This document shows, in pieces, positions 46,676-61,520 of a DNA stretch of 64,000 bases (position 1 is the first letter of the stretch; each line of letters starts with the position of its first letter). This DNA comes from Halomonas sp. I5-271120. Its GTDB lineage: Bacteria > Pseudomonadota > Gammaproteobacteria > Pseudomonadales > Halomonadaceae. The notes below the pieces were generated by a model. It did not search any database. It was not told where the DNA came from and worked only from the letters and a program-made list of their open reading frames with translations. Made by a program: the position numbers and the translations under genes. The stretch spans positions 2,542,001 to 2,606,000 of the forward strand of contig NZ_CP130701.1 of NCBI RefSeq assembly GCF_030553075.1, in the 5' to 3' direction.

Positions 46676-46760
46676 GTTCTGATTCCTGTCGGTCGCCTAT
46701 CAAGCCCTGTTTCTACCATGCCGTCAGGCCAAGTCAATCGTTCTCGATTTCTCACAGGCT

Positions 46761-46844
46761 TTTTCAATGACTTTTTCAATGACTTTCTCAATGACTTTCT
46801 CAATGACTTTCTCAATGACTTTCGCAAAGGCTTCCTCACTGACT
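46761..46844. repeat. 12-bp tandem repeat array
   Basis: Five near-identical copies of TTYTCAATGACT (46761-46820), then two degenerate copies in the same register (46821-46832, 46833-46844). It lies between pldA and the mechanosensitive channel gene. The minus strand reads as repeated KVIE, the plus strand as NDFL, but neither belongs to a gene with other support. Confidence 0.9.
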
Positions 46845-50558: not shown

Positions 50559-51320
50559 TCAGTCACGACGGCCGTGCAGCAGAAATTCGCGGTTGCCGTC
50601 GCCGCCTTTGATCGGGCTTTCTTGCCAGCCAAGCACCGTGAAACCCTGTTCTGAACAGCAGGCGCGAATACGCGACTCGACGCCTGTCAGCAGGGCGTCA
50701 TCGGTCACGATGCCCCGCTCGTTGACCTTGCCGGGACCGACCTCGAACTGCGGCTTGACCAGCGACAGCAGCTCGGCGCCTGTCGACAGCAGCTGGCTCA
50801 GCTGGGGCAGGATCAGGGTCTGGGAAATGAAGGACACATCCATGACGGCAAGCGACAGCCCGCCGGGTGCATGCTCTGCCAGGGTCTTGCGCAATTCGGG
50901 AGAGTCGGCCATGGCACGGGCATTGAGACCTTCCAGACAGCTGACTCGCGGGTCATCGCGAAGCCCCGGGTCGAGCTGATTGTGGCCGACCTCAACGCCG
51001 ATGACATGAGCCGCGCCGAAGCGCAGCGCACAATCGGTGAACCCGCCTGTCGACTGGCCCACATCCAGTACCACCCTGCCGTCAAGGCGCATGCCACGGG
51101 CCTCGAGCAAGGCTTCGAGCTTGAGCCCGGCCCGCGAGGCGTAGCGCTCCTCGGGGTCATCGGCGACCGTCAACGGACTGTCTTCCGGCAGCTTTTCCGA
51201 AGGCTTGGTCAGTGGCGGGTGGCCTGCCAGGCTGACCCGACCATGGCGGATCAGGCGCTGGGCGCGTGAGCGGGAGCGTGCCAGGCCCTGGGCGACGAGC
51301 AGCTGGTCGAGTCGGATCAT
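50559..51320 (-). CDS. tlyA: TlyA-family rRNA 2'-O-methyltransferase
   Basis: 253 residues: an N-terminal S4 RNA-binding domain (RLDQLLVAQGLARSRSRAQRLIRHGRV) and an FtsJ/RrmJ-like methyltransferase domain. The latter has YASRAGLKLEALL, VVLDVGQSTGGFTDCAL, LAVMDVSFISQTLILP, LVKPQFEVG, and SPIKGGDGNREFL at the end. Family members methylate 16S/23S rRNA; the hemolysin name is historical. The gene converges with mscK, its stop six bases from the mscK stop. The ATG at 51320 lacks a strong Shine-Dalgarno. Confidence 0.92.
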   Translation of the reverse strand: MIRLDQLLVAQGLARSRSRAQRLIRHGRVSLAGHPPLTKPSEKLPEDSPLTVADDPEERYASRAGLKLEALLEARGMRLDGRVVLDVGQSTGGFTDCALRFGAAHVIGVEVGHNQLDPGLRDDPRVSCLEGLNARAMADSPELRKTLAEHAPGGLSLAVMDVSFISQTLILPQLSQLLSTGAELLSLVKPQFEVGPGKVNERGIVTDDALLTGVESRIRACCSEQGFTVLGWQESPIKGGDGNREFLLHGRRD

Positions 51321-51370
51321 GGAGCCTCTGGCCGAAAGAGCGGAACGTGTGGAGTGGGATTATACGCAGG

Positions 51371-51401
51371 ACGGCCTGCGGGAGAGAATCCCGCAGGCCG
51401 T
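51371..51401 (-). terminator. Hairpin after the papain-like gene
   Basis: A 13-bp perfect stem (51371-51383 with 51389-51401) and a GAGAA loop lie between the minus-strand papain-like gene and tlyA. No T run, but it is well placed to end the ATP-grasp/papain operon. Confidence 0.7.
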
Positions 51402-51461
51402 CTGATGGTGAGAGTGTAGAGATGAGAATGTAAGGGACAGTGGCGGGGTAGATGCGCCGGT

Positions 51462-53513
51462 TTAGCCCTCTGGCGGCGTCTGTCCGCTGCTCGCCTGTAG
51501 CTCACCCTCGGGGATGCGATCCTTACCCCAGCTGCGATGGATGTAGCCGGTCACCCGGTCGATTTCTTCCTGGGTGATCTTGGCCAGCTCACCGCGCTCC
51601 AGCGGATCATAGTGGTAGATATACAGGCGCGACACGAACTGCTCGAAGGGCAGCGAGGACTCGCCGAAGCGCTCGCCGTGGTCTGCCGTGCTGACCTTGA
51701 TGCCGTCGCCCCAGTCCTGACCGCTGTCGTTATTGGGGTTGAAGAAATAGACCCGCATCACGTCATTGGGGTCGAGGTTGGCGCGCAGAATGGTGATCGC
51801 ATGCCAGCCGATGAAACGGGCCGCGGTGTCGGTCACGGCGATGCCGGCCGGCTGCGGGTGGATCAGCGGCTGATTGCCGTTGTAGTAGGGGTGATAGCTT
51901 GCATAGAAGTGGCGCAGGAAATCGTCCAATTCCGTCAGCTGCCCGGTCGCTACATCGACATTGATGCGAAAGCCTCGGCCTGACCACCAGCCATGGAATT
52001 CCGGGTTGACCCAGCGGTGCGGATCGCCTTCGCGGCCGATGCAGCGCCGTCCCATCTCCGCATAGATGCGGTCGAGGTGCGGCACCACGATCAGGGAGAC
52101 CGGGTCCAGGTCGGTGGGCAGTGTCTGGGCGATGCCGGAGAGGCTTGCCATGGAAGACAGCGGCATGCCCTCAAAGTGCATGATGATATCGTCATCGCGT
52201 GCGCCCCAGGCCACCATCTGCAGCAGGTAGTCAGGGTCGTTGTAAGCCCACATCGATAGGGCGCGCGCTGACTGGCAGGTCGGGTTGTTGCCCTGGCCAA
52301 CGCCCAGCGGCAGGCCGAGCATGCACAGCACGCCTTCCAGTAGCCTTGCCTTGGGCGAGACGGTTTCCCCAAAGGCCAGGTTCAGGCGGGCCTCGGACCA
52401 GTCAGAGAGCGGCAGCCCCAGTTGGCGCCACATGGCGGGCGCCACGGGGGGCTGGTAGAAGATACCGCGCTCAAGGGTCAGGGCCAGGCCGTAGATCGCC
52501 TGGGATGTTTCCGGATAGACACCGCCACGGATCAGCGCGTGGACCAGTTCGTGATAGCAAAGCAGGCAGTCTCGTCCGGTAGAGGAGAGCCCCATGGCCT
52601 CTGCTAGCAGGTGGTCACTGTAGTCCAGCAGGTGACGCAGCAGTATCGGATGGTAGGCGGAGACCAGACCCGTGTCGTGCATGGAGCGCGCAAAGCCGGT
52701 GGCCTCACCCTGGAGAGCGGCGGTGTCCATGCTGGATAGCCGCTCACGATAGACATCGACCCCCGGGTCTTCGCGAGAGGCTCGGGTGGGACCGAACAGC
52801 GAGCTGACCAGGCGGTCGGCGCCCTGGCCGCTGCCCCCAAGGTCGATATCGGGATTGGCCTGGCAGAGGGCGATCTGCGTGATCATCTGCTTGACGGATT
52901 CTACCTGGATGGGACGCTGCTCCAGGATCCGCCAGATTTCCTCGATCAGATGATCGATGATGTGCTCATAACCGATGCGTTCGGACAGATAGCGGAACAG
53001 GTGGCGCGGAACCTCGGCCAGTCGGCCCTGGGTTTCGCGTTCGGCCTCGGTGGGATCACCAAACAGCAGCCGAAGGTTGATCGCCATGGTCTGGGTCAGG
53101 TAGTGGTGCGCCTGCTCCAGAGAAATGAGCGGGTGAATATAATCACCCTTGGCCACGGCCAGGAGCCGTAGTTCGCTTAGCGACTCGATCACCACCATGT
53201 TGGGGTCGGCGCTTGTCAGCGCATGGGTGGTGAGTGACGGAACCAGGTGCTGAGGCGTTTCCCAGTCGGAACCCAGGAATATCCCGGCTTCTTCAAGGAC
53301 GCGGCCGCGCTGCTCGATGGCCGCGCAGCCGCCCTCTTGCAGCATGACCCGTCGGGCGGTATCAAGCACTCGTGGCAGTTTGCTCGGCTTGGCGAAGTCG
53401 CGCGCGTTGCTGAGTAAAGTGATGGCGTCGTCGAATTTCTTCAAAAGGCCAGCGAGTTTCTCGCTGGCCTCCAACGCTTCACTTTGGGGTGTCGTGTCTC
53501 GTGGCGTTGTCAC
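51462..53513 (-). CDS. Uncharacterised 683-residue protein with papain-like catalytic set
   Basis: I do not recognise a named family. The C-terminal part carries what reads as a papain-fold active site in order: Gln407 and Cys413 in GQGNNPTCQSARALSMW (Gln six before Cys, as in papain), His571 in ARFIGWHAITIL, and Asn592 in VYFFNPNNDSGQDWGDG. The last resembles the papain NSWG-WG segment. The N-terminal 400 residues are mostly helical and unassigned. They include H321-E-L-V-H325, an HExxH string that may be chance. No signal peptide or membrane segment, so cytoplasmic. The GTG at 53513 has AAGGAG six bases upstream. It lies 47 bases behind an ATP-grasp gene on the same strand, so the two probably form an operon. 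Hydrolase function is inference. Confidence 0.75.
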   Translation of the reverse strand: MTTPRDTTPQSEALEASEKLAGLLKKFDDAITLLSNARDFAKPSKLPRVLDTARRVMLQEGGCAAIEQRGRVLEEAGIFLGSDWETPQHLVPSLTTHALTSADPNMVVIESLSELRLLAVAKGDYIHPLISLEQAHHYLTQTMAINLRLLFGDPTEAERETQGRLAEVPRHLFRYLSERIGYEHIIDHLIEEIWRILEQRPIQVESVKQMITQIALCQANPDIDLGGSGQGADRLVSSLFGPTRASREDPGVDVYRERLSSMDTAALQGEATGFARSMHDTGLVSAYHPILLRHLLDYSDHLLAEAMGLSSTGRDCLLCYHELVHALIRGGVYPETSQAIYGLALTLERGIFYQPPVAPAMWRQLGLPLSDWSEARLNLAFGETVSPKARLLEGVLCMLGLPLGVGQGNNPTCQSARALSMWAYNDPDYLLQMVAWGARDDDIIMHFEGMPLSSMASLSGIAQTLPTDLDPVSLIVVPHLDRIYAEMGRRCIGREGDPHRWVNPEFHGWWSGRGFRINVDVATGQLTELDDFLRHFYASYHPYYNGNQPLIHPQPAGIAVTDTAARFIGWHAITILRANLDPNDVMRVYFFNPNNDSGQDWGDGIKVSTADHGERFGESSLPFEQFVSRLYIYHYDPLERGELAKITQEEIDRVTGYIHRSWGKDRIPEGELQASSGQTPPEG

Positions 53514-53560
53514 GCAGACTCCTTGTCATCAGGCTTTCATGCTTTCTATGACGCCCTACA

Positions 53561-54784
53561 TCAGACATAGAAATCAAGATCTTCCAGGTGCTTGAGAAGA
53601 TCCTTCATGCGCTGAGCTTCGTCGCCCTTGAAGTAGATCAGGCCCCAGTGCGTGCCGAAGGCGGTACGCTTGGTGACGGTCTCTTCCATGGGAGCGGTCA
53701 GCTCGTGGGACTCGAAGTACGGATGGTCTTCGACCTCTTCGGGGATCTCCAGCTTGCTGACCACGCGGCGGCGCGGATAGACGCCGAAGCAGCCGGCAAA
53801 GCCGTCGGCATCGACCACTTCCTTCGGGAAGAAGGCCTTGACCTCTTCTTCGGTGGTCTTGGGGTCGAAGACCAGCATCGAGGCCTGGTAGGCGTTGAAG
53901 CCGTAGACACGTTCGAGCAGTTCGAAGACTTTGAAGCCCGGCGGACGATAGGCAACTTCGCCGAAGTACATCTCGCCATCGTTGGTGACGAAGTACTCGG
54001 GATGGATCAGGCCGAACTCGATATCGAAGGCCTTGATCAGCTTCTCGATCTGCGCGGTAATCTGCGGGCGGTACTTCTCGAGCTCCGGAGAGGCCGGCAC
54101 GAACACCGAGTAGCCAAGCGTTACGTATTCGGAAATGTTGAGGAAGACGATCTTGCCGTTGTGAATCCAGGCTTCCACCGCGAATTCCCAGCCGTCCAGG
54201 TGCGACTCCATCAGCACCGGGAATTCCTCGTCGGGAATCGTATCGACCTCATCCGGGGTGCGGATCACGCGATGCCCCAGGCAGCCGGCCTTGTCGAAGG
54301 CCTTGAGGTGGATCGGGTCATTGGGGTCGCCGTCGAGCTTGAGCAGCGTCTGGTTGACGCGCTTCAGGAAGCGGATGACGTCTTCCTTGTCGTGCGCTTC
54401 CTCGAAGATGCCCACGCGGATGCCGCCCAGCTGAGCGCGACGCTTCATCAGCGCCTTGTCGCGCAGCAGCAGCGACTGGCCGTAGAGGCGCGGGCTGTCG
54501 AGCAGCACGGAGTTGATCGCACCGGCCCACTCCACGGTTTCCTCGAACAGGGGGATGGCGACGTCGACGCCCATGCCTTTCAGAGTCTCGGCGATCTCCA
54601 TGGAACGATCATTGAGACGCTCGAAGTTCCATGACACGTAGGGAATATCGTGCTTTTCGCAATAGTCCTCGGCCCAATCCGGCGCCACGACCACGTAGCG
54701 GCGATCGAAGCTTTCGGCGGCCTCTAAGGCGCTCAGGCTCCAGCCCAGCAGCGCGATATAGCCCTTGTTGGAATCCTTTTGCAT
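53561..54784 (-). CDS. ATP-grasp ligase
   Basis: 407 residues with the ATP-grasp three-domain layout. Pre-ATP-grasp region with ALLGWSLSALEAAE, then RDKALMKRRAQLGGIRV (first lysine strand). TLLKLDGDPN and PVLMESHLDGWEFAVEAWI form the ATP-contacting strands, and LIHPEYFVTNDGEMYFGEVAYRPPG the metal-ligand end (Glu ligands). Such enzymes join a carboxylate to an amine, often in peptide or amino-acid conjugates. The exact substrate is not apparent. A C-terminal 90-residue extension holds CFGVYPRRRVVSKLEIP. The ATG at 54784 has GGAAGAG upstream. First gene of a two-gene operon with the papain-like protein. Confidence 0.85.
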   Translation of the reverse strand: MQKDSNKGYIALLGWSLSALEAAESFDRRYVVVAPDWAEDYCEKHDIPYVSWNFERLNDRSMEIAETLKGMGVDVAIPLFEETVEWAGAINSVLLDSPRLYGQSLLLRDKALMKRRAQLGGIRVGIFEEAHDKEDVIRFLKRVNQTLLKLDGDPNDPIHLKAFDKAGCLGHRVIRTPDEVDTIPDEEFPVLMESHLDGWEFAVEAWIHNGKIVFLNISEYVTLGYSVFVPASPELEKYRPQITAQIEKLIKAFDIEFGLIHPEYFVTNDGEMYFGEVAYRPPGFKVFELLERVYGFNAYQASMLVFDPKTTEEEVKAFFPKEVVDADGFAGCFGVYPRRRVVSKLEIPEEVEDHPYFESHELTAPMEETVTKRTAFGTHWGLIYFKGDEAQRMKDLLKHLEDLDFYV

Positions 54785-54894
54785 TGGTTCTCTTCCTGTT
54801 GGTGTGAAGTCTTGTAGGTAACGCCCAAGCTACACCTATAAGCCTAGACTAGAAAGAAGGCGTCTGGCCTGAGCCCAGAGCCGGTCATCCGGTC

Positions 54895-54923
54895 TTGCGG
54901 ACCCTCTAAGCCGCTGTTATAGT
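54895..54923 (+). promoter_or_regulatory. Promoter upstream of ffs
   Basis: -35 TTGCGG (54895-54900), 17-base spacer, -10 TATAGT (54918-54923), then a GC-rich GCGCCCC discriminator. It points to a start near 54930, about 70 bases before the SRP RNA, implying a processed 5' leader with a CCGGT/ACCGG hairpin. Confidence 0.7.
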
Positions 54924-55002
54924 GCGCCCCGCTCGATGCGCCGGTGAATCAACCGGGCAGCCTTGGATATGACTATCGTTTGGCAAGCAGTCGAGTCGTT
55001 AT

Positions 55003-55112
55003 GGTGGCCCCGTCGGTCCTCCCGCAACGCTAAATCGCAAACCCCGCCAGGCCCGGAAGGGAGCAACGGTAGTGATGGATGCGTGTGCCGGGATGTGGCT
55101 GTCGGGGCCGCC
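55003..55112 (+). ncRNA. ffs: Signal recognition particle RNA (4.5S)
   Basis: About 110 bases matching the small bacterial SRP RNA. The conserved domain IV includes the GGCCCGGAAGGGAGCAACGG region (GGAA tetraloop and asymmetric loops) and the return strand GTGTGCCGGGATGTGGCTG. CTCCCGCAACGC on the 5' side matches E. coli 4.5S RNA. The ends pair: GGTGGCCCCG with CGGGGCCGCC. The ends given are my reading of the terminal helix. It partners Ffh in co-translational membrane targeting. Confidence 0.93.
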
Positions 55113-55257
55113 TCCATTTCAGGGGTCGAAATCTCCGCCTCCTTGTGGTCTCCCTCCCTTGCCTTTCGGCGATGCGCTCCAGCAGCTAGAATACCTGTCC
55201 GGTTCAGGCACTGCGTCTGACCGTGCGTCGTGCGTTGAACGGCGTCGTCTAATTTCC

Positions 55258-55305
55258 ATGAAAGTTTCGATGAAAGTTTCGATGAAAGGATCTCGCGCTG
55301 CATGA
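55258..55305 (+). CDS. Possible 15-residue leader peptide coupled to dnaX
   Basis: ATG at 55258 opens a short frame that reads MKVSMKVSMKGSRAA and stops at TGA 55303-55305. The stop overlaps the dnaX start codon as ATGA. The first part consists of a 12-base unit (ATGAAAGTTTCG) repeated twice plus a partial third copy, which gives three in-frame ATGs. The third repeat also supplies AAAGGA as the probable ribosome site of dnaX. Translation is unproven. Confidence 0.35.
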   Translation: MKVSMKVSMKGSRAA

Positions 55306-57539
55306 GCTATCAGGTATTGGCCCGCAAATGGCGCCCCCGCACCTTCCATGAGCTGGTGGGGCAGGAGCACGTGCAGCGCGCGCTGGTCAACGCCCTGGAT
55401 CAGGGGCGCTTGCACCATGCCTATCTGTTCACCGGGACGCGCGGTGTCGGCAAGACCACTCTGGCCCGCATTCTCGCCAAATGCCTGAACTGCACTGCCA
55501 ATGGCGACGATGATAGCGGCGTCACCTCGACGCCCTGCGGGCATTGCGAGAACTGTCGAGCCATCGACGATGGGCGCTTCGTTGACCTGATCGAGGTCGA
55601 TGCCGCCTCGCGCACCAAGGTCGAAGATACCCGCGAACTGCTCGACAACGTTCAGTACGCGCCCACCCAGGGCCGCTATAAGGTGTACCTCATCGATGAG
55701 GTACACATGCTCTCGACCCACAGTTTCAATGCGCTGCTCAAGACCCTGGAAGAGCCGCCGCCGCATGTGAAGTTCCTGCTCGCCACTACCGATCCGCAGA
55801 AGCTGCCGGTTACGGTGCTGTCGCGCTGTTTGCAGTTCACCCTCAAGAACATGCCGCCGGAGCGCATCGTCGAGCACTTGAGCCGAGTGCTCGAGGTCGA
55901 AGACGTGCCCTTCGACGAAAGCGCCCTGTGGCTGCTTGGCAAGGCGGCCGATGGCTCGATGCGTGATGCCATGAGTCTGACCGATCAGGCGATTGCCTTC
56001 GGCCAGGGCCAAGTGCGCCAGGCCGATGTCGCTGCCATGCTGGGTACCCTCGACCAGCGTCATGTGCTGACGCTGCTCGAAGCGCTGGCTGAGGTAGATG
56101 CGGCGCGGGTACTCAGTGAAGTGGCATCGTTGGCCGAGCAGGGGCCTGACTTCGCTGGCGTGCTCGATGACCTGCTCGGCGTGCTGCATCGTCTGGCGGT
56201 GGCGCAGATGGTGCCCGGCGCCCTGGATAACGGCCACGGCGACCGTGAGGTTCTGCTGACGCTGGCCTCGCGCTTCACCGCCGAGGATGTGCAACTCTAT
56301 TACCAGATCGGCCTGCAGGGCCGCGGTGACATGGATCAGGCGCCAGAGCCGCGCACTGCGCTGGAGATGACGCTGCTGCGCATGCTGGCCTTCCGCCCCC
56401 AGGGCGTCCCCAAACCGGCCCAGACACCTCTGCCGATGACCGGCGACGCCGTCCCGGAGCAGACTGCTGGTAAGCCCCCTGGGCAAGCCCCCGAGCAGAC
56501 GCCGCAGCCGGCCCCGGAGGCGTCACCCCAGGGGACGGCTTCCGGACCGGTTGCCGGCTCTGCTCCCAATGATGATCAGCGCAAGTCGTCGCCCTCGCCA
56601 GCGCCGGCCTCTCAGCCAACGCCCGAAACAGCCGAGCCCACGGCGCCGGCGGATCCGCGGCCCGCCAGTGAGCAGCCGCCCCCCTGGGAGGCACTGCCGG
56701 ATGACATGACGAGCACGCCGGAGACGCCTGCTGAGTCAGCTATGGAGGGGGGCGAGGATAGCTCTGGGCATGGTTCTGGGCATGACCCTGAGCATGGTTC
56801 TGGGCATGACCCTGAGCGTATGCCTGAGGATAGTCCTGGAAACCGCTCCGACAACGGCTTCGAGCAAAGCGACATGGACGCAGCCCCTGCGCCTCTGGAG
56901 GCCAGCGCTCAGCCATCTCATGTTCCCGAGCCGGCATCGGATGCGCCCTCAATGGCGCCCGATACCGCGCCCGCAGCCACTGCACCCTCCATGGCGCCCG
57001 ATACCGCACCCTCTATGGTGCCCGATACCGCACCCGCAGCGGCGGCTGAAGCACCGTCGGACGCTGTGCCTTCCATCGAAGCCGAAACGCCGCCGGCCCC
57101 GGCGAATGCGCAGGCGGCGGCCGATACAGACGCTATTCTTGACCAGGCCGCCTGGCTTGGTCTCTTCGAACAGCTGGGGCTTGGGGGCCTGACACGCAAC
57201 CTGGCGGCCCATTGCGTGGTCGAACGTGACGATGGCCGGGCTCTGGTGTTGCGCCTTGCGCCGTCCCAGGCGGCCATGAATGCCGAGGTTCACGTCACGC
57301 GCATCCAGAAGGCTCTTGCGGGTGTCGGCGTGAAGCGGGCGGTGAGCATCGAGGTGGGCGAGATTCCCGAGGCTGTGGAAACGCCCCGAGGCCAGTCCGA
57401 ACGAATCAACGCCGAGCGTCATGCGGTGGCGGTTGAAGCCCTCAGGGCTGACCCGCATATTCAGAAACTCCAGTCGGCCTTTGGTGCCCGCCTGGTGGAA
57501 GACAGCGTCGAACCGCGCCAGAACCACGATTCGGCCTGA
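55302..57539 (+). CDS. dnaX: DNA polymerase III subunits gamma and tau
   Basis: Clamp-loader ATPase. The 745 residues contain Walker A GTRGVGKTTLARILAK (about 44-59), a zinc site of four cysteines (CLNC ... CGHCENC), Walker B VYLIDEVHML, and sensor 1 LLATTDPQKLPVTVLSRC. The domain III helices follow. A long low-complexity linker (about 370-600) contains SGHDPEHGSGHDPE and repeated APSMAPDTAP units, then the tau domain that binds the polymerase alpha subunit. I find no A-rich slippery heptamer of the E. coli type, so frameshift synthesis of gamma is not indicated. First gene of dnaX-ybaB-recR. Confidence 0.96.
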   Translation: MSYQVLARKWRPRTFHELVGQEHVQRALVNALDQGRLHHAYLFTGTRGVGKTTLARILAKCLNCTANGDDDSGVTSTPCGHCENCRAIDDGRFVDLIEVDAASRTKVEDTRELLDNVQYAPTQGRYKVYLIDEVHMLSTHSFNALLKTLEEPPPHVKFLLATTDPQKLPVTVLSRCLQFTLKNMPPERIVEHLSRVLEVEDVPFDESALWLLGKAADGSMRDAMSLTDQAIAFGQGQVRQADVAAMLGTLDQRHVLTLLEALAEVDAARVLSEVASLAEQGPDFAGVLDDLLGVLHRLAVAQMVPGALDNGHGDREVLLTLASRFTAEDVQLYYQIGLQGRGDMDQAPEPRTALEMTLLRMLAFRPQGVPKPAQTPLPMTGDAVPEQTAGKPPGQAPEQTPQPAPEASPQGTASGPVAGSAPNDDQRKSSPSPAPASQPTPETAEPTAPADPRPASEQPPPWEALPDDMTSTPETPAESAMEGGEDSSGHGSGHDPEHGSGHDPERMPEDSPGNRSDNGFEQSDMDAAPAPLEASAQPSHVPEPASDAPSMAPDTAPAATAPSMAPDTAPSMVPDTAPAAAAEAPSDAVPSIEAETPPAPANAQAAADTDAILDQAAWLGLFEQLGLGGLTRNLAAHCVVERDDGRALVLRLAPSQAAMNAEVHVTRIQKALAGVGVKRAVSIEVGEIPEAVETPRGQSERINAERHAVAVEALRADPHIQKLQSAFGARLVEDSVEPRQNHDSA

Positions 57540-60508: not shown

Positions 60509-60707
60509 TCGTTCCCTACCCCCGAGCATGACCATCCTAGCGCTGACCTGAACGTTTTCATTGCAGAACCTGATGCTGAAGAACCATTCCCTTTTCCGAT
60601 GGTGAAGGAGGTGGCAGGTAACCATGCTATGGAGGTGTGTAACAAAATGTTTTGCGCAGGCCGACAGGCGATGCGTCAGGCAAGGGGCAGCAGCAAGGGG
60701 GCAGGCA

Positions 60708-61520
60708 ATGAACATGTTCAAGTTGACGGCCCTGGCGGTGGCAATCGGTTGTTTGTCATCGACAGGCGCCTTGGCGCAATCGTCACCGGAAAATAACTTC
60801 GCTAGTCCGTTACCACCGGATCAGATGCAAGGTATTGGCAATAACACGCTGACGGATGCGGAGCTGGATGCATTAATCGACGACCTCGAAGCTCCGGCGG
60901 CAGGCGGCGGTGGTGGCTGTGGCGGTGGAGTCGAGGAAGGTTGTGATGGCTTTTTCTTCCAGGTAGCGGCGATTACGCCTCCTCCGGGCGCGCCTGAACC
61001 AACCGATCCGACCGACCCGACTGGTCCAACCGATCCGACCGACCCCACTGATCCGACCGATCCCACTGGTCCGACCGATCCTGGTAATGGCGGCGGTGGT
61101 GGTGGTTCTGACGGCGGCGCTGGTGGTGGTTCTGACGGCGGCGCTGGTGGTGGTTCTGACGGCGGCGCTGGTGGTGGTTCTGACGGCGGCGCTGGCGGTG
61201 GTTCCGGCGGCGGCGGCGCTGGTGGTGGTTCCGGCGGCGGCGCTGGTGGTGGTTCCGGCGGCGGCGCTGGTGGTGGTTCCGGCGGCGGCGCTGGTGGTGG
61301 TTCCGGCGGTGGCGCTGGTGGTGGTTCCGGCGGTGGCGCTGGTGGTGGTTCCGGCGGTGGCGCTGGTGGTGGTTCCGGCGGTGGCGCTGATGGTGGTTCC
61401 GGCGGTGGCGCTGATGGTGGTGCCGGCAGCGGTGCTGGCGGTAGCGGTGCCGGTGGTAATGGCGGTAGCGGAGGTAGCGGCGGCGGTGCCGGCGGCACGG
61501 GTTCCGGCGCGGGTGGTTGA
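60708..61520 (+). CDS. Secreted glycine-rich repeat protein
   Basis: 270 residues. A signal peptide (FKLTALAVAIGCLSSTGALA, cut before QSSPENN) is followed by a 60-residue unique region with a Cys pair (GGGGCGGGVEEGCDGFFFQ) and a Thr-Asp-Pro repeat of nine to ten units. The rest is a long glycine region of 24-base repeats. The glycine repeats read AGGGSDGG four times, then AGGGSGGG about eight times, ending in a degenerate Gly/Ser/Ala tail. No family assigned. The first half resembles secreted proteins with a short N-terminal domain and a disordered surface tail. The ATG at 60708 follows AAGGGGG. Monocistronic; the repeats could change in number. Confidence 0.7.
   Translation: MNMFKLTALAVAIGCLSSTGALAQSSPENNFASPLPPDQMQGIGNNTLTDAELDALIDDLEAPAAGGGGGCGGGVEEGCDGFFFQVAAITPPPGAPEPTDPTDPTGPTDPTDPTDPTDPTGPTDPGNGGGGGGSDGGAGGGSDGGAGGGSDGGAGGGSDGGAGGGSGGGGAGGGSGGGAGGGSGGGAGGGSGGGAGGGSGGGAGGGSGGGAGGGSGGGAGGGSGGGADGGSGGGADGGAGSGAGGSGAGGNGGSGGSGGGAGGTGSGAGG
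61000..61082 (+). repeat. Thr-Asp-Pro coding repeat
   Basis: Nine-base units of the form ACCGATCCG, with ACCGACCCG and ACTGGTCCG variants, in tandem within the glycine-rich protein gene. Confidence 0.8.
61099..61410 (+). repeat. 24-bp tandem repeats coding for glycine-rich octapeptides
   Basis: Four copies of a unit coding AGGGSDGG (about 61106-61201), then about eight of a unit coding AGGGSGGG, with later copies shifting GGCGGC to GGTGGC and finally to ADGG. Within-block identity is nearly complete, a sign of recent expansion. Confidence 0.85.

Follow-up and report, generated by a model that had tools for sequence, protein, structure and literature searches.

A candidate two-enzyme system of an ATP-grasp ligase and a papain-like protein in Halomonas and related bacteria

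The window analysed here is a 64,000-nucleotide stretch of the genome of Halomonas sp. I5-271120 (assembly GCF_030553075.1, contig NZ_CP130701.1, positions 2,542,001 to 2,606,000 of the forward strand). It carries on its minus strand two adjacent genes, the first coding for an ATP-grasp ligase of 407 amino acids (aa) and the second for a papain-like protein of 683 aa, hereafter referred to as ATPg and PAP, respectively, which are examined as a candidate two-enzyme system. An earlier reading, made from the sequence alone (the sequence-only reading), had reported the two open reading frames (ORFs) on the same strand with a gap of 47 nucleotides, and both coordinates and strand were reproduced. 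The features of the locus, in window positions, are as follows.

53561..54784, minus strand: ATPg, upstream gene of the pair, coding for an ATP-grasp ligase of 407 aa (ORF; PF13535 match; partial profile match to 4wd3)
53945..53998, minus strand: predicted metal/phosphate site of ATPg with E263, E276 and R280 (HPEYFVT...GEVAYR; alignment to 4wd3)
53514..53560, minus strand: intergenic gap of 47 nucleotides with the ribosome-binding site AAGGAG at 53519-53524 (sequence)
51462..53513, minus strand: PAP, downstream gene of the pair, coding for a papain-like protein of 683 aa (ORF; homologues; no family above cut-off)
52395..53513, minus strand: all-helical N-terminal region of PAP, residues 1-373 (AlphaFold2 model, secondary structure)
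51609..52394, minus strand: papain-like domain of PAP, residues 374-635
52293..52295, minus strand: Q407, predicted oxyanion-hole Gln of PAP (431/431 homologous sequences)
52275..52277, minus strand: C413, predicted nucleophile of PAP, at the start of helix 413-425 (431/431; DSSP)
51801..51803, minus strand: H571, predicted general base of PAP, in strand 567-580 (431/431; DSSP)
51738..51740, minus strand: N592, predicted third residue of PAP, directly after strand 586-591 (430/431, one Asp; DSSP)

The start codon of PAP is GTG at 53513, with AAGGAG five bases upstream. A simple scan of positions 51200-55400 gave no sigma-70-like promoter (0.8 expected by chance), a result that says little. No signal peptide was apparent on inspection in either protein, no prediction program having been applied.

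Catalytic residues and family relationships of the two proteins

The residues Gln407, Cys413, His571 and Asn592, which the sequence-only reading had placed in papain order, are all present in PAP and are conserved in 431, 431, 431 and 430, respectively, of 431 homologous sequences, and all four occur together in 430 of them, the sole exception carrying Asp at the N592 position. Homologues lacking the Cys or the His, which had been named as evidence that would count against a papain-like enzyme, were not found among the 431 sequences. The Gln six residues before the Cys (Q-x5-C) and the later WG, here as Q-x-W-G downstream of N592, were likewise confirmed, and the catalytic set is kept down to 37% identity. 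In this sequence set one gene may appear twice, as a protein record and as a DNA match, and 20 of the matched DNA stretches hold a stop inside the alignment, taken as the natural stop near the C-terminal end since the alignments extend beyond it. Near-invariance in 431 distinct homologous sequences indicates that the set is no chance occurrence. This bears on the simplest alternative, that ATPg and PAP are two unrelated neighbours and the papain motif is fortuitous. Genes on one strand do often adjoin, and those on either side of the pair are ordinary ones, but the invariance of the catalytic set, together with presence and absence in step over about 774 genomes and the four gene arrangements described below, makes such a coincidence extremely unlikely.

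Calpain cores are the best structural matches to the PAP model; Foldseek alone gave none at E 0.001. PAP shares with the papain and calpain families (C1, C2) the Q-x5-C, His and Asn order, the later WG and the position of the Cys at a helix start. It differs from them in that P-N-x-D/E and, further on, Q-x-W-G come after N592 in place of the N-S-W-G motif of papain, in the large extra helical region at its N-terminus, and in the lack of any Pfam peptidase match at E up to 1. Neither the PAP of the window nor six homologues matched a C1 or C2 peptidase profile at E up to 1. In the profile searches no family matched PAP above its cut-off, the only Pfam match being DUF2891 (12.4 bits, under the cut-off of 25), and neither the CHAP domain (E up to 1) nor an aspartic peptidase family was matched in Pfam. 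Judged by its residues and model, PAP is a protein with an invariant Gln-Cys-His-Asn set on a predicted papain/calpain-like domain and would represent a new family of papain-fold enzymes.

The N-terminal region, described as unassigned in the sequence-only reading, still has no assigned fold; it is all-helical in the AlphaFold2 model and its structural matches are short and uninformative. The HExxH string (H321-H325) noted there is present in the PAP of the window but is not conserved in the homologues, where position 321 is mostly Arg (254 of 431) and E322 and H325 occur in 233 and 235 sequences, respectively. As Arg is the most frequent residue at position 321, the string is a chance match, and a metallopeptidase reading of PAP was ruled out. 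The C-terminal tail is variable among homologues. A role in anti-phage defence was also considered and rejected, the PADLOC models having given nothing at E up to 1; the database label 'Zorya protein ZorC EH domain-containing' on two PAP relatives (P0056 and P0249) is not borne out, neither having such a Pfam domain.

ATPg matches PF13535 (ATP-grasp_4) above the cut-off (E 1e-6, 28.9 bits, cut-off 27), its match to NCBIfam PRK07206 (30.8) being far under the cut-off of 302. Its nearest solved relatives by sequence include L-amino acid ligases (RizA/BL00235 type), with a similarity limited to a part of the protein: 4wd3 is matched with E 4e-5 by single sequence and with E 0.004 by profile alignment of residues 189-313 only, and BL00235 (3vot) by a partial profile match with E 0.017. 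The similarity to these ligases covers only about a third of the chain and includes the catalytic E...E...R segment, in which HPEYFVT...GEVAYR of ATPg aligns with HLEIYRT...GEIAMR of 4wd3. E263, E276 and R280 are invariant in 22 aligned relatives, and we take their role as a metal/phosphate site from the ATP-grasp family; ATPg is thus predicted to have the metal-site residues of ATP-grasp enzymes. ATPg had no match to the RimK Pfam family or to the Gsp-synthetase Pfam family (the latter at E up to 1).

ATPg is unusually conserved, with a mean column identity of 88% over the 22 relatives and 75-92% identity between the ATPg of the window and those elsewhere in the phylum sample, and evolves far more slowly than PAP (median distance 0.22 vs 0.48 in 36 pairs).

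Co-occurrence and linkage across genomes

Both proteins were searched for in four samples of genomes, drawn from the class (274 genomes), the phylum (398), the family of genome G334 (61) and the order of genome G171 (61, with a closer relative as PAP query). The class and phylum samples, which presumably share 15 genomes, were searched with thresholds of E 1e-3 (PAP) and 1e-30 (ATPg), and the other two with 1e-20 for either protein. In the class sample PAP was found in 8 of the 274 genomes and ATPg in the same 8. The phylum sample gave PAP matches in 12 of 398 genomes, one of which (G460) was weak and proved on translation to be a different protein; the remaining 11 are exactly the carriers of ATPg. 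PAP was matched in 34 of the 61 genomes of the family of G334, and 33 of these are exactly the ATPg carriers, the other (G724) holding two PAP fragments only and no ATPg. Each gene is present in 17 of the 61 genomes of the order of G171, and the genomes are identical. Pooled over about 774 genomes, 64 carry both genes, one carries PAP fragments only (G724) and none carries ATPg only. Near relatives also vary jointly, as two genomes of genus g229 (G764 and G768) are without both genes. No probability was put on this co-occurrence because the genomes are not independent. In the order of G286, which lies outside the count as it was searched with PAP alone, 3 of 61 genomes gave matches.

To judge from these matches, the genomes searched keep both genes or neither. 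As the genes are found together in genome after genome, the pair is probably one system; their joint presence and absence suggests that either gene is of little use alone, and loss of either should therefore give the same missing or accumulating compound.

Among the named genomes the carriers are mostly Halomonas and other Gammaproteobacteria, presumably of marine or salt-loving habit. Database clusters at E 1e-3 number at least 2,468 for PAP and at least 1,944 for ATPg. A phage origin finds no support, no relative being present in viral contigs (35 pattern matches, none confirmed). Spread by plasmids was likewise rejected, as a single one of 72,556 records, a Halomonas record of 1.8 Mb, carries a relative.

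Gene linkage, for which the sequence-only reading had proposed a survey, holds for most but not all close relatives: in the best 80 of at least 572 loci of named genomes, ATPg lies directly upstream of PAP in 72 and does not in 8. All 8 genomes without an adjacent ATPg retain another elsewhere, 79-81% identical to that of the window, and four of them (L054, L058, L064 and L077) show short remains of the adjacent ATPg beside an intact PAP. An automated ORF picker missed both genes in L073, L096, L270 and L280, and the counts of linkage and of histone deacetylase (HDAC)-type neighbours were therefore redone by tblastn.

The PAP copies (79, the window's and 78 others) were divided by identity to the PAP of the window into subfamilies A (at least 62%), B (48-61%) and C (below 48%). 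ATPg adjoins 11 of 13 copies of subfamily A, always with ATPg first, and all 10 copies of subfamily C (9 convergent, 1 with PAP first). It adjoins 15 of 56 copies of subfamily B, equally divided between ATPg first, PAP first and divergent (5 each), and 41 of the 56 have no ATPg within the fetched stretch, a share that reflects loci chosen partly for being unlinked and flanks that measured about 5-8 kb, and less than this in L293 and L299. Among 36 linked pairs from the ORF picker, a partly different set, ATPg is first in 19 and PAP in 6, and 7 are convergent and 4 divergent. The existence of four arrangements suggests that the pair has been kept or re-formed in each. Within these 36 pairs the distances of ATPg and PAP correlate (r 0.64, with none of 2000 permutations as high), shared ancestry contributing to the correlation.

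Two of these observations, the retention of ATPg wherever an intact PAP occurs in the genomes searched, even unlinked, and its far slower change, would also be expected if ATPg modified or matured PAP itself, as an activator of an enzyme whose substrate is something else. The variable C-terminal tail of PAP speaks against this, and no acceptor residue was identified, although no search was aimed at one; we regard this explanation as improbable.

Extra copies of PAP occur in many genomes. The genome of the window itself has a second PAP, of type B and 55% identical (L092 7550-9622, contig C1 at about 2,959,700), with no ATPg nearby, and as it holds ATPg in a single copy, one ligase may serve two PAPs. 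Genome G334 has 5 PAP and 2 ATPg genes. Several diverged PAPs per ligase would fit one precursor with several tailoring enzymes, and thus a sequential biosynthesis, in which the dipeptide-like product of ATPg would be extended by PAP, acting as transpeptidase or cyclase and not as a hydrolase, in the manner of phytochelatin synthase. The order of Gln, Cys and His also fits papain-fold transferases, phytochelatin synthase being a papain-like transferase, and this scheme overlaps the transfer branch of the reading preferred below. Against it, the Asn and the WG further on are closer in appearance to a hydrolytic papain or calpain, and PAP has no recognised acceptor-binding domain; nothing in the present data separates transfer from hydrolysis. 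On balance sequential biosynthesis is considered rather unlikely.

Neighbouring genes and comparison with known systems

The neighbourhood was searched by tblastn in 95 loci (about 1,427 kb), the HDAC, M17 and GST queries being drawn from the same set of loci, chosen for having such a neighbour. In 7 of the 95 loci (L091, L096, L100, L157, L275, L283 and L310) an HDAC-type deacetylase is encoded no more than 650 bases from PAP or ATPg, and one further copy (L155) is 3.2 kb away. PF00850 was confirmed for 6 of the 7, the exception, L091, being cut by a contig end. The seven loci span at least five genome families (f150, f163, f166, f172 and f175; L091 belongs to a metagenome assembly), which makes shared synteny an unlikely cause of the adjacency, though the queries are from the same set. 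A more specific identity of these neighbours as acetylpolyamine hydrolases is unsupported, the nearest solved structures being of the HDAC6 and HDAH types.

In 3 of the 95 loci (L182, L264 and L309; confirmed with Pfam for L264, the one checked) the gene of an M17 aminopeptidase is at most 400 bases away, and an orphan PAP of type B directly follows a PotI-like permease gene in L179, L180 and L261. In L261, the only locus in which the family was tested, the PotI and PotF models match under their equivalog cut-offs. Both sets of loci are confined to family f172, and their evidence is therefore weaker. Copies of type B also lie beside or near genes that we take from sequence to be TRAP transporter genes (L098, L292 and L293), and the second PAP of the window's own genome has as its divergent neighbour an ABC transporter with a CBS domain in the ATPase. 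A linkage with YghU-type GST was discarded, as only L268 of 8 matching loci among the 95 (L269 weak) has it within 50 bases and the others have it 1.5-4.4 kb off.

Downstream of the pair in the window are a gene for an S4/FtsJ methyltransferase and one for an MscK-like channel, both recognised by domain matches. The former is found downstream in 65 and the MscK-like gene in 59 of 90 loci, and both are absent from all 15 more distant loci inspected. The neighbour tables hold no constant third gene beside the pair. Overall, the neighbours, as predicted from sequence, point to small-molecule metabolism and to no single substrate.

Some further features were observed in these loci and in the window. 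Two overlapping genes (494 and 351 aa) lie near and downstream of an orphan PAP in L181 (9320-10804 and 10786-11841) and L159 (9347-10831 and 10813-11868); neither Pfam nor NCBIfam gave a match to the L181 pair at E 1e-5, and the two genes appear to code for a GCS2-type ligase and an aspartoacylase-type hydrolase. A Memo-like protein (PF01875; L159 6413-7255) is encoded directly upstream of the orphan PAP with 23 bases between, and in one genome an ectoine synthase gene (PF06339; L100 4997-5437) directly follows ATPg. Upstream of the pair in the window a bacterial small signal recognition particle (SRP) RNA lies at 55011-55107 on the plus strand, upstream of a gene that we take to be dnaX; an ORF of 128 aa at 54917-55303 overlaps this RNA and is thus probably spurious and no gene. 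The window also holds a 12-base tandem repeat of about 8 copies (46748-46844) upstream of the MscK-like gene and a 24-base tandem repeat of about 14.6 copies, 94% alike (61089-61442), within a glycine-rich ORF (60624-61520).

Pairs of a ligase with a thiol hydrolase are of an already known kind. In glutathionylspermidine synthetase/amidase (GspSA) one amide is formed by the ligase half and cleaved by the Cys-amidase half of a single bifunctional chain, which has a CHAP amidase domain (PMC6272389). ATPg and PAP, by contrast, are two chains without a CHAP or Gsp-synthetase Pfam match at E up to 1. As a case of ligation and thiol-dependent cleavage directed at one and the same amide, GspSA is a true precedent in principle, although the pair does not belong to its family.

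In RimK-RimB and RloA-RloB-RloC an ATP-grasp ligase is encoded with a protease in one operon, the proteases being retropepsin-like and RloB an inactive membrane transglutaminase (PMC12239564). The RimK/RimB precedent raises the possibility of protein modification, in which a protein would receive an amino acid or peptide through ATPg and have it removed or processed by PAP, on the model of RimK and RimB, which act in this way with glutamate on a ribosomal protein. The strong conservation of ATPg, as if held by a fixed partner, and the modelled helical N-terminal region of PAP, which could bind a protein, are consistent with this. However, ATPg matches PF13535 and not the RimK family and PAP matches no aspartic peptidase; no constant third gene stands beside the pair as a target, though a target could be encoded elsewhere, and the neighbours include small-solute transporters and deacetylases. 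Protein modification is thus judged unlikely.

No description of the pair was found in the titles and abstract openings of the literature searched. The amidoligase survey of Iyer et al. 2009 (Mol. Biosyst. 5:1636) reportedly pairs ATP-grasp enzymes with papain-like or transglutaminase-like proteins, and the present pair may be mentioned in it. The main text of a 2023 papain classification (PMC10318531) contains no mention of Halomonas, and names ATP-grasp only in a reference title. What appears to be new here is the unrecognised papain-fold family, its near-perfect co-occurrence with the ligase and the presence of one ligase for several PAP copies.

Proposed mechanism and significance

The sequence-only reading had suggested a pathway of a ligase and a thiol hydrolase or transferase, and the invariant catalytic set, the joint presence and absence and the repeated linkage support it. 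We consider it fairly probable, from sequence comparisons, that ATPg and PAP constitute one two-enzyme system, in which the ligase would make an amide or peptide product and PAP would hydrolyse or transfer it. Both proteins are presumably cytoplasmic. ATPg would use ATP to activate a carboxylate and would couple this to an amine, so that a small amide or a short-peptide conjugate results; PAP would attack an amide or ester of this product through an acyl-thioester on C413 and then hydrolyse the bond or hand the acyl group to another acceptor. A single strongly conserved ligase could in this way serve several diverged PAP copies. We infer that the product of ATPg is a small molecule and is what PAP acts on, and also in which direction the reaction runs; the HDAC-type deacetylases and solute transporters occasionally found nearby suggest that the target is a metabolite, an amine or a peptide, and not a dedicated protein. 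On this reading, two 'hypothetical' genes with thousands of relatives become one testable biochemical system.

A bolder form of this proposal, which we advance tentatively, is an undescribed non-ribosomal pathway for amide conjugates, with one strongly conserved ligase, whose product would be cut or re-used by one to five papain-fold enzymes encoded beside different transporters, and an optional HDAC-type deacetylase. If true, it would add a metabolite system that is new and has a cysteine enzyme family of its own.

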